A DNA stretch of 64,000 nt from Rossellomorea marisflavi (lineage in GTDB: Bacteria > Bacillota > Bacilli > Bacillales > Bacillaceae_B), in assembly GCF_009806575.1 (NCBI RefSeq), contig NZ_CP047095.1, forward strand, positions 3,042,001 through 3,106,000. Reading direction: 5' to 3'. The notes below the pieces were generated by a model. The model had not been told where the DNA came from. It did not search any database and was given only the letters and a program-made list of their open reading frames with translations. Positions 752 through 63,100 of the stretch are shown piece after piece (within the stretch, counting starts at the first letter, position 1; each line of letters starts with the position of its first letter). Position numbers and translations under genes: made by a program.

Positions 752-1043
752 AAAGAGGTTGGACAAAATGAAAAAGGGACCATTTCATGACGAACACGAT
801 CCGTATAGGTTCTTTATACCTCTCATGAGTTCCGTGCAAGACTTCGCTTTCTGCGGGTAGCCCTTGAGCCTCCTCAAGACTTGCCTGCGGGATGCCGCAG
901 GAGGCTTCGTCTTGCACTCCAATCGACCGCTGGAAACCATTTAAATGGTCATGAAACAAATTAAAACCCGAACCATTTTGCCAGATCGCAGGCAAATGAA
1001 TTCGGGTTTTACTATGACTAAAACACGTTTGTCCAGTCTCTTT
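752..1043. repeat. Dispersed structured repeat, A-type copy 1
   Basis: About 292 bp with imperfect terminal inverted repeats: AAAGAGGTTGGACAAA at the left end, and the reverse complement of the right end reads AAAGAGACTGGACAAA. Inside are an outer stem GTGCAAGAC (834-842) / GTCTTGCAC (909-917), a GC-rich core (GCTTTCTGCGGG ... CCGCAGGAGG), and a hairpin AAAACCCGAA ... TTCGGGTTTT (972-1015) that can act as a terminator in both directions. The right end lies 7 bp from the hemL stop codon. Related copies are at 8101-8341 and 62815-63100. No coding signal was found here. No other feature is seen between 641 and 751 apart from the upstream region of the peroxiredoxin. Confidence 0.85.
972..1015. 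terminator. hemL-side terminator inside the A-type repeat
   Basis: Stem AAAACCCGAA / TTCGGGTTTT with an inner TTTGCC / GGCAAA pairing. A-run on the left and T-run on the right allow termination from either side. It is the first hairpin downstream of hemL on the minus strand. Confidence 0.7.
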
Positions 1044-8100: not shown

Positions 8101-8341
8101 AAACACGATCCGTGTAGATTCTTTATGCCGCTCATGATTTCCGTGCGAGACTACGCTTTCCGCGGGTAGCCCGTGAGCCCCTCTGCAAGCTGTGGGGAGC
8201 CACTCTTCCCGCAGGAGTCTTCGTCTTGCACTCCAATCAACCGCTGGAAAGTTGGTCATGAAACCAATGAAAAACCCGAAGTCATTTGCTTTAGGTAGCT
8301 GACTTCGGGTTTTACTTTGACTACCGTTTTTCTCCCAGCCT
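8101..8341. repeat. Dispersed structured repeat, A-type copy 2, left-truncated
   Basis: Aligns by eye with copy 1 (752-1043) from AACACGATCCGT onward, so roughly the first 40 bp, including the left terminal repeat, are missing. It keeps the core GCTTTCCGCGGG ... CCCGCAGGAGTC, the outer arm GTGCGAGAC/GTCTTGCAC, the terminator hairpin AAAACCCGAAGTCA ... TGACTTCGGGTTTT (8271-8313) and a degenerate right end (TCTCCCAGCC). It fills the gap between two convergent genes, ending about 8 bp from the stop of the ABC ATPase gene. Confidence 0.8.
8271..8313. terminator. Bidirectional terminator inside the A-type repeat
   Basis: Fourteen-base arms AAAACCCGAAGTCA / TGACTTCGGGTTTT. It serves the plus-strand membrane protein gene and the minus-strand ABC transporter operon. 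Confidence 0.75.
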
Positions 8342-8348
8342 TCTTCTC

Positions 8349-33289: not shown

Positions 33290-33480
33290 AAAAAAGGTTC
33301 AGTCGGCATTGTGAGATAGCTCTCCAAGATGAATCATCTTGACAATCCTGCATCTATTAAATGCAGAACCAGCGCAGCCGATATGAGTGCGGCTTCACTT
33401 CGGCGGTCCTCCCCTTTCCAGTCACATCTCCAGAGCTCATACTCTTCCGTGAACCGTACTATTGAAGTCCGCACCTCTAT
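33290..33480 (-). ncRNA. Lysine riboswitch (L-box)
   Basis: The minus strand has the conserved aptamer elements TAGAGGTGCGGACTTCAATAG near the 5' end, GGAAAGGGGAGG and CGCCGAAGTGAAGCC in the middle, and a closing pairing near TCGGCTGCGCTGG. These match the L-box consensus, and position ahead of lysC confirms it. With the following terminator it should cut off lysC transcription when lysine is plentiful. An outer hairpin (33481-33497) precedes it. Confidence 0.93.
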
Positions 33481-33518
33481 CACCACTTAAAAAGTGATAA
33501 TGTTTTTAATTTTTGTTC

Positions 33519-35519: not shown

Positions 35520-36300
35520 GGATTAGACCGTTTCATTGCGCTTCGGGCACTTGCTTTCCACGGGGAGGGTGTCGAGCCTCCTCGGCAGGCCTGCGGGGTC
35601 TCGATCATCCCTCTTTTCCCGTTGGAGTCAAGCGCCCTTCGCTTCATTTCACTCTTTGGTGCTTGATCATTGTGTACTCTTTCTTTAATGGGGTGTGCGG
35701 GTACTCCCCTACTATGGGACAGGATATTAGGTAAATCATTTCGGCTCCCTTTTAAAATCGGGTTATCAGGAAAAAGGGGACCGTTCCTTTGCGCTTCGGG
35801 CACTCGCTTTCCATGGGGAGGGTGTCGAGCCTCCTCGTGCCTGCGGGATCTCGATCATCCCTCTTTTCCCATTGGAGTCAAGTACCCTTCGCTTCATTCC
35901 TCTCTTTGGTGGTTGATCAGTATGTGTTCTTGATCCTTTTGGGTTCAGGTACTACTCTTTCTAAGAGGATAGAATGCATCTGCTGAATCATTTTCGGTTC
36001 CCTCAAAGGATTTGGGTATCAGTGAGAATATGGACCGTTCCATTGCGCTTCGGGCACTTGCTTTCCATGGGGAGGGTGTCGAGCCTCCTCGTGCCTGCGG
36101 GGTCTCGATCATCCCTCTTTTCCCATTGGAGTCAAGTGCCCTTCGCTTCATTCCACTCTTTGGTGGTTGATCATTGTGTACTCTTTCTTCATTGGCATAT
36201 GTGGTATTTCCCTTACTGTGGGACTTGCTGATGAATCGTTTTCCTTTTTCTTTAAGGGTTTGATCATCAGGAAGAATGTAGACCGCTCCATTTCACTCTG
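35520..36300. repeat. Tandem array of three B-type structured repeats, about 253-bp period
   Basis: The 1.1-kb gap between uvrC and trxA (35334-36443) holds no gene. Three units start near 35526, 35780 and 36032, each with a 135-bp core (TTGCGCTTCGGGCAC-TGCTTTCCA-GGGGAGGG ... TTTTCCC-TTGGAGTCAAG-CCCTTCGC) and a less conserved spacer that begins GGTGGTTGATCA. A decayed fourth start (GACCGCTCCATTTCACTCTG) is near 36280. In unit 3 the arms GGGCACTTG (36052-36060) and CAAGTGCCC (36133-36141) pair perfectly. Short reading frames across the units repeat with them and look non-coding. Confidence 0.9.
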
Positions 36301-48947: not shown

Positions 48948-49075
48948 GCCCGTTCCTCTCCGCTCCAGGCAGCCGCTTTCCACGGGGCGTGCGGTGAGCC
49001 GCTTCGGCAGGCCTGCAGGGTCTCACCCTGCCCGCTTTTCCCGTTGGAGTCGGCTGCCTTCCGCTCCGAGGAACT
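48948..49075. repeat. B-type structured repeat, single copy
   Basis: Shares the core of the 35.5-36.3 kb array (GCTTTCCACGGGG ... GAGCC ... GGCAGGCCTGC ... TTTTCCCGTTGGAGTC) but has different outer arms. GTTCCTC (48952-48958) pairs with GAGGAAC (49068-49074), and GGCAGCCG (48968-48975) pairs with CGGCTGCC (49051-49058). It lies between the convergent rnhC and pheT, flanked by a terminator on each side. Confidence 0.85.
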
Positions 49076-49138
49076 CTGTGATTTTTGAATGGAAGCCCAT
49101 AGCCTATCTTCACCCCACCTGGTGTGTGAAAGGCACAC

Positions 49139-52730: not shown

Positions 52731-52990
52731 AAATAAAAAAACCCCATCCCGGAAAGGGACGAGGTTTGATCGCGGTACCACCCTTATAAGCAGGCAGCGT
52801 TCGCCCACTCACTTCATTCGGATAACGGCATATGCCGGTACATCATTACATTGCCTGGGCAATGGTCCCGATGCCAACTCGAGAGGTGAAATTTCACAGC
52901 TGTCCTTCATAAGAGTGCTTTCAGTCGAGGCACTCTCTCCCTGGAGGAATTCCAGATGCTACTTTCCTCTTTCAACGTTTTTCATATATG
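52731..52990 (-). ncRNA. T-box leader of pheST
   Basis: The minus strand carries the T-box sequence GGGTGGTACCGCG (52771-52783), followed by a terminator hairpin (AAACCTCGTCCC-TTTCC-GGGATGGGGTTT plus a T-run, 52731-52767). Upstream lies the large stem I region with paired arms around AGAGTGCC and GCACTCT. Uncharged tRNA-Phe is expected to bind and prevent termination. A TTC in GGAATTCC near 52957 is a candidate specifier, not proven. Confidence 0.93.
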
Positions 52991-59154: not shown

Positions 59155-59225
59155 AACTAGCCACCTCCAAGGTAATTTAAAAGAATACGCGGTATTGGTT
59201 TGCAGCACCCTTACTCATTCAGAAA

Positions 59226-59259
59226 CAAAAAAGATGCGAGTGTCGAAACACCCGCATCT
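59226..59259 (-). terminator. Leader terminator of the infC operon
   Basis: Minus strand AGATGCGGGTGT-TTCG-ACACTCGCATCT followed by TTTTTTG, about 75 bp before the infC start. Attenuator of the L20-controlled leader. Confidence 0.85.
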
Positions 59260-59385
59260 GATTATAAAGCACATCGCTTAATTATCATGAAAGTTACCTG
59301 GTAACTGCAAAACGCGTCATTCAGGTGAGAAGCGGGATGCCTCTACTTGTACCAAACTGTATTCAATTCACCTTAGATACTATAC
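59226..59385 (-). ncRNA. L20-type ribosomal protein leader of infC-rpmI-rplT
   Basis: The transcribed leader includes a folded region (near 59290-59360, with CAGTTACCAGGTAACT hairpin) ahead of the terminator. Position, terminator and downstream genes match the L20 leader of B. subtilis, in which L20 binding favours termination. I identified it by context and hairpins, not by a full consensus fit. The gap 59155-59524 holds nothing else I recognise apart from thrS 3' flank. Confidence 0.7.
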
Positions 59386-61510: not shown

Positions 61511-61790
61511 AAAACAAAAAACCCCGCCCCTCCGTAAATATACGAAGGGACGAGGTTGCACTCGCGGTTCCACCCAACTTTTCATCCCCGAGACGGGAAT
61601 GACTTCATTGTTTTGATAACGGCGTTTCGCCGTCGATGACTACTGGGGAAATACCCGTTCGCAATCGAAGTTCAGAGGTGGTCAATTCATCCTTGCTGAT
61701 AGGAAGCTTGCAGCCATTCGGCTTCCCTCTCTGTAATCCCGTCCGGAAGATTGTTGTCCTCATCATAACCTGTTTGTATGCACATAGTAT
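61511..61790 (-). ncRNA. T-box leader of thrS
   Basis: Minus strand holds GGGTGGAACCGCG (61563-61575), the T-box sequence, followed by the terminator AACCTCGTCCCTTCG / CGGAGGGGCGGGGTT plus T-run (61515-61557). The upstream stem I region extends to about 61780. It should respond to uncharged tRNA-Thr. Specifier codon not fixed by eye. Confidence 0.93.
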
Positions 61791-62814: not shown

Positions 62815-63100
62815 AAAGGAGGTTGGGACAAAACGAAAAGGGTACCCTTTCATGACGAAGACGAGCAGTGCAGGCTCTTAATGCCGCTCATGATTTCCGT
62901 TTCCACAGGCGGCCCGTGAGCATGACTGTGGGGTCTCACGTAAGCCACTCTTCCCGCGGGAGTTCTTGTCCTTCAACCGCTAGGAACAAGTAACTAGTCA
63001 TGTTCATGAAATAAATTAAAACCCGAACTTCTTTGCCTGATCGTAGACAAATGAATTCGGGTTTTACTATGACTAAAACACTTTTGTACCAGCCTCTCTC
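62815..63100. repeat. Dispersed structured repeat, A-type copy 3
   Basis: About 286 bp, the same plan as copy 1: left end AAAGGAGGTTGGGACAAAA, right end TTTTGTACCAGCCTCTC (imperfect inverted repeat), GTGAGC-containing core with CTCTTCCCGCGGGAGTTC, and terminator hairpin AAAACCCGAA ... TTCGGGTTTT (63019-63066). The last 30-odd bases before the right end (GGTTTTACTATGACTAAAAC) are nearly identical to copy 1. It separates dnaI from ytxC and ends 10 bp from the dnaI stop. Confidence 0.85.
63019..63066. terminator. dnaI-side terminator inside the A-type repeat
   Basis: Stem AAAACCCGAA / TTCGGGTTTT with inner pairing, as in the other A copies. First hairpin downstream of dnaI on the minus strand. 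Confidence 0.7.

Follow-up and report, generated by a model that had tools for sequence, protein, structure and literature searches.

A probable IS1182/IS1272-type MITE that replaces terminator hairpins with its own predicted terminator in Rossellomorea marisflavi

IS1272, an IS of the IS1182 family, takes the place of a hairpin target without target duplication (PMC5678879). It was shown that IS1272 and TnSha1 replace or partly delete inverted-repeat targets, with no duplication in either case (PMC5678879, PMC4923244), and RNA-seq has confirmed that several of the TnSha1 targets are terminators (PMC4923244). The IS1182 family consists of DDE-type ISs with terminal inverted repeats (PMC5678879). 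The repeat element that we describe here shares with it a hairpin target that has no sequence consensus and is replaced without duplication, and the congener ISs whose ends are identical to those of the element belong to this family. It differs from IS1272 in being a 300-bp MITE without a transposase, present in tens of copies and carrying its own terminator. TnSha1 and TnSha2 are similar to the element in that IS1272-type ends move passenger DNA into terminator hairpins, with deletion of the hairpin (PMC4923244); the TnSha1 passenger is a gene plus an IS, whereas that of our element is a terminator and no gene.

Other short intergenic repeats are less close. SPRITE, BOX and RUP are likewise short and non-coding, with inverted ends and stable folds, and SPRITE contains a terminator-like sequence; the portion of the source available to us does not describe replacement of a native terminator by MITEs of this type (PMC10969869). 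IStrons (PMC4227781) resemble the element in that a passenger function renders the insertion harmless to the host. The IStron passenger is a self-splicing intron and that of the element a replacement terminator, which makes the IStron an analogue and not a member of the same group.

The repeat family and its position at gene ends

The window, a stretch of 64,000 nucleotides of Rossellomorea marisflavi, holds three copies (752-1043, ~8101-8346 and 62815-63099) of one related, structured repeat family, as the initial annotation had recognized; the genome holds about 60. The features of the window copies are:

752..1043, minus strand: copy 1, downstream of hemL in a tandem context, with its terminator end adjoining the hemL stop
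1027..1043, minus strand: gene-proximal inverted repeat of copy 1 (AAAGAGACTGGACAAAC)
963..1010, minus strand: predicted built-in terminator hairpin of copy 1 (AAAACCCGAA...TTCGGGTTTT), with A/T tracts on both sides
830..935, minus strand: GC-rich, palindromic core of copy 1, the consensus of which is an IS110 target
752..768, minus strand: distal inverted repeat of copy 1 (AAAGAGGTTGGACAAAA on the plus strand)
8101..8346, minus strand: copy 2, downstream of an ABC-transporter ATPase gene, without the distal inverted repeat
8271..8313, minus strand: predicted terminator hairpin of copy 2
62815..63099, minus strand: copy 3, downstream of dnaI, with inverted repeats at 62815-62833 and 63082-63099
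63018..63065, minus strand: predicted terminator hairpin of copy 3

Imperfect inverted-repeat ends had been proposed for all three copies. They are found in copies 1 and 3, while copy 2 retains the gene-proximal repeat only (to ~8346). The element consensus is 316 nt long (real copies have ~300 bases) and consists, in the reading direction of the upstream gene, of an inverted repeat AAAGAGGCTGGGACAAAC, a hairpin with the arms AAAACCCGAATTCATTTGCC...GGCAAATGAATTCGGGTTTTT, the GC-rich palindromic core and a second inverted repeat GTTTTGTCCCAACCTCTTT. The inverted repeats measure 17-19 bp and are retained in most copies; no credible long ORF was found within the consensus. The 750-1045 strand has a fold 5-7 SD more stable than those of dinucleotide-shuffled sequences, and the fold of the element is far above shuffles in stability on both strands. 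Rfam covariance models at gathering score match the element to no family, and a literature text search with the repeat sequence strings returned unrelated papers only. The Rfam features of the window itself, all on the minus strand, are ordinary: a lysine riboswitch (33309-33487), two T-box leaders (52752-52984 and 61543-61775) and an L20 leader (59222-59354).

The initial annotation had named two outcomes that would refute its proposal, a genome with three copies only and copies with no positional preference; neither was borne out. BLAST located ~40 places (with 40 of 77 candidates scored), and a covariance model built on the left 105 nt gave 61 forward copies in the analysed genome (G000, the source of the window) among the matches listed. 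The two closest relatives, G027 and G034, hold ~80-95 copies each. The totals of covariance-model matches, which include some palindrome echoes, are 94 in G034, 85 in G027, 79 in G016, 78 in G001 and 64 in G000. Copy 1 of the window is also present in G027.

Several copies depart from the consensus. A 126-bp mini version (L080, G000:C1 ~3666517-3666642) has both inverted repeats and the terminator without the core, so the core is dispensable in that copy; it spans a convergent gene pair from stop to stop. A diverged copy (L118, G000:C1 3336424-3336517) has a different terminator hairpin, TCCGAACGAATTC...GAGTTCGTTCGGA, and no recognisable distal repeat; it is possibly a separate subfamily, and its site differs in G027 too. 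Another copy (L040, G000:C1 2402447) is broken by ~1.4 kb of other DNA, the translation of which, judged by eye, resembles an IS3-type transposase. In G010, G017, G029 and G032 the element halves (1-179 and 178-316) are set ~120 bp apart, as a longer core variant.

Genes were called with a simple ORF/hexamer program of our own that overlooks some of the small ones. The gene-proximal ends of copies 1, 2 and 3 lie 6, 3 and 11 bp from stop codons, distances that replace the 7-11 bp first reported. Genome-wide the preference for stop codons is clear: the terminator-proximal end lies within -20 to +30 bp of a same-strand stop in 43 of the 61 copies and at least one end is at a stop in 51, while only 4.7% of the remaining intergenic bases of the window are within 15 bp downstream of a stop. 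Convergent genes flank 25 copies and divergent genes none, and many of the former occupy the whole stop-to-stop gap with 0-14 bp left over. Orientation, described as always the same, is indeed constant among the three window copies. Between tandem genes across the genome the terminator end is beside the upstream stop in 19 copies and reversed in 7 (binomial p=0.03), which is a bias and not a rule.

Loss of the target hairpin without duplication

Comparing G000 with G027 copy by copy, at a flank identity of ~90%, we found five G000-specific copies with a clean empty site in G027 and 16 G027-specific copies with a usable empty site in G000. From the 28 unmatched G027 copies, 12 were excluded for lack of a G000 stretch, an unrecognised end or an oversized gap; most of those that were readable likewise show a hairpin. 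This insertion polymorphism between close relatives (5 + 16 sites) demonstrates recent insertions and bears out the earlier suggestion that the element is or once was mobile and acts as a 3'-end module.

In all 21 site pairs the strongest hairpin within 80 bp has its centre inside the lost bases, where random placement would put it at 4.4 of 21 sites (P ~1.5e-15). The element replaces 22-119 bp, mostly 22-55, and the centre of the lost segment is at most 3 nt from the hairpin centre in 14 pairs. Hairpins in this count were located by a stem scan; an earlier automatic measure, for which some hairpins were wrong or over-long, gave a mean of 71% of the hairpin lost against 34% at random. The 21 replaced hairpins are unrelated in sequence and give no target consensus. 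Since gene ends usually carry terminators, a nearby hairpin is not telling by itself; the loss of the hairpin, and of the hairpin only, is.

No target duplication was seen in the 21 occupied/empty pairs. The element has the other properties of a MITE: it is short, lacks a transposase gene, carries terminal inverted repeats equal to those of an autonomous element (the IS1182-family ISs) and occurs in ~60 dispersed copies. In place of the usual target site duplication the target hairpin is lost, and the replacement of a hairpin without sequence consensus at 21 of 21 sites is the mark of stem-loop-replacing elements. The absence of a duplication, as reported for IS1272, argues for the IS1182 subtype and not against mobility.

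One possible option is that an ordinary duplicating MITE inserted beside native terminators, which then became redundant and decayed. This could likewise leave a lone element at a stop codon, and old copies would look the same under both histories, yet we consider it very improbable. In the ~90%-identity flank pairs no remnant of the native hairpin is seen although the bases outside it are retained, the hairpin is at the centre of what was lost, and there is no sign of a duplication. Gradual decay also predicts intermediates, and none of the 21 pairs shows the element together with the native hairpin.

Two convergent loci extend the comparison to other congeners. At the first, a compact native terminator fits exactly between the stop codons in nearly all the congeners examined; at the second, such a terminator is found in many congeners and is commoner than not. 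At both loci G000, G027 and G034 hold the element, with no remnant of the native hairpin.

IS1182-family relatives and the source of movement

Searching congeners for a transposase domain of the IS1182 type turned up ISs of 1.81-1.84 kb with the ends AAAGAGGCTGGGACATAAC and AAAGAGGCTGGGACAAAAC, an inverted repeat identical to that of the MITE. The inverted repeats of the element (AAAGAGGCTGGGACAAA) match those of 1.83-kb IS1182-family elements, and the end form shared by the MITE and the 1.81-1.84-kb ISs is AAAGAGGCTGGGACA(A/T)AAC. The transposase of these ISs belongs to the IS1182 family (NF033551, E=1e-124). Beyond the inverted repeats no obvious common sequence is seen between the MITE and the ISs. 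The element itself encodes no IS1182 transposase, which makes it a dependent relative and not an IS1182 member.

In G026 the IS1182-family IS is separated from the two convergent stops by 5 and 2 bp. At this SDR-gene locus the native hairpin is kept in G003 and G010 (arms AAAAGGCAGCCTTC...GAAGGCTGCCTT in G003), the IS has taken the place of the hairpin in G026, and in G013 the hairpin has given way to the MITE, which is reversed and truncated at its far end. The IS and the MITE have thus each replaced this target once, and no other single observation links them as strongly. The identical ends and the replacement of the same target hairpin suggest that an IS1182 transposase may mobilise the MITE in trans.

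Another reading dispenses with a transposase: recombination among terminators, such as gene conversion at common A/T tracts, may spread the element. The A and T tracts that flank native terminators and element ends alike would fit this, as does the host genome search, which found no transposase. We regard it as scarcely probable, because the native hairpins have almost no sequence in common with the element, and most copies retain inverted repeats identical to the ends of a genuine IS, which replaces sites of this very type.

A local IS1182 partner was rejected, which weighs against the IS1182/IS1272 reading: G000, G027 and G034 yielded neither an IS1182-type transposase nor a piece of one. 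Private copies in both G000 and G027 indicate that movement went on after their split, so the source was recently lost, external or undetected. Among 36 Rossellomorea genomes the MITE-rich ones are mostly without the matching IS, and in most carriers of the IS the MITEs are few or absent; high MITE number and the matching IS1182 are nearly mutually exclusive, with both present in G005.

Pairs of inverted repeats 2 kb apart in G000, considered as autonomous copies, proved to be MITEs into which an IS110-family IS had inserted. This IS (1,756 bp; PF01548/PF02371, NF033542) was also rejected as the mover of the element, as it inserts within the core and its ends differ. Its eight near-identical copies in G000, which use the MITE core or a standalone relative of it as a landing site, have an identical insertion point, GACTCC^/CTCCTGCGG, and are located as follows:

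G000:C1 near 522509, 2181828, 2797169, 2938733, 2972524, 3347472, 3847936 and 4179605: IS110-family loci L321, L329, L333 and L335-L339

Five are inside MITE cores and three inside standalone core-like repeats. By analogy with the family, insertion may be guided by a bridge/seek RNA. IS110-family ISs that target REP elements likewise have a single, fixed insertion point within an intergenic repeat (PMC1525189); the target here is the MITE core and its standalone relatives instead. Core-like sequence without the rest of the element was found in congeners, and in the window lone GC-rich core-like repeats stand at 35528-35681, 35778-35931, 36032-36185 and 48950-49088, the first three in a row with ~250-bp spacing (35528-36185). 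They are probably a second repeat type, related to the core of the element.

The internal hairpin and a proposed mechanism

In the 61 copies the internal hairpin has a median dG of -26 kcal/mol and is flanked by A and T tracts; among the eight bases after the stem the median number of T is 5, on the gene strand as well as on the opposite one. With a GC-containing stem followed by a T tract, the hairpin has the form of an intrinsic terminator. A strict terminator pattern scan did not flag copy 1, the loop and tail of which do not fit within the limits of the scan.

In an alignment of 32 copies pairing in the internal hairpin reaches 94%, and for 10 of the 21 base pairs there is a copy in which both partners have changed, for example from CCCGAA/TTCGGG to CCCGCA/TGCGGG. 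The outer stem is 82% paired, with changes on both sides in 8 of 16 pairs, each in a single copy. In core helices 6-12 such changes are found in 1 of 51 pairs. Over the whole structure, changes on both sides are no more numerous than in slid controls, and therefore we argue for maintenance of the terminator helix only. Template switching can re-symmetrise palindromes with short loops, so the compensatory changes are no proof of selection. Structure, position and covariation together suggest that the internal hairpin takes over termination.

The second option of the initial annotation was a conserved structured RNA. Taken as a 3'-UTR RNA, either cis-regulatory or a small RNA, with its whole fold maintained and inherited vertically, it is hardly credible: the fold is very stable on both strands and its site at gene ends is fixed, but the sites differ among close relatives, a presence/absence pattern that largely refutes this reading, the core helices are nearly free of compensatory change, Rfam gives no match, and some copies are truncated, core-less or broken by other ISs.

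The explanation that we find very probable is a non-autonomous IS1182/IS1272-type MITE that replaces terminator hairpins without duplication and brings its own hairpin as a predicted terminator. A transposase provided in trans would act on the 17-19 bp inverted repeats and insert the element at an intrinsic-terminator hairpin, which would be lost during insertion by stem-loop-replacing transposition with no target duplication; the enzymology is modelled on IS1272. The hairpin of the element, placed with its A/T tracts near one end, would terminate the upstream gene and, read in the opposite direction, presumably the convergent gene. Because the terminator function would pass over in the same event, insertions would be tolerated and copies would accumulate at stop codons, while selection would preserve the pairing of the internal hairpin and the remainder would drift. 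The siting at stop codons would then follow from the element taking the place of the native terminator hairpin, swapping terminators instead of destroying them, a cause that was not visible to the initial annotation.

Stem-loop-replacing transposition was described in staphylococci, at a modest number of sites. While the process is known already for IS1272, a terminator-carrying MITE that uses it genome-wide is new as far as we could find, and no description of one was found in the open-licence literature searched. The finding offers an explanation of Bacillaceae intergenic repeats of a type that has, as far as we found, no accepted name or function. The dozens of copies in each genome and the 21 base-level before/after pairs, together with the locus that has native, IS and MITE states, make the rule that the target is a hairpin and not a sequence directly testable.

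We think it likely that in this MITE lineage each jump removes a gene-end terminator and installs its own, so that many gene 3' ends then depend on one mobile terminator. If so, tens of unrelated gene 3' ends per genome, in several Rossellomorea genomes, would rely on one selected mobile terminator, and the lineage would harbour a natural, genome-wide terminator-swapping system. With a replacement built in, such a MITE would be expected to spread at little cost to its host. This suggests a route by which a mobile element may colonise gene ends while transcription termination stays unbroken, and a way in which one sequence can replace many terminators of a lineage.
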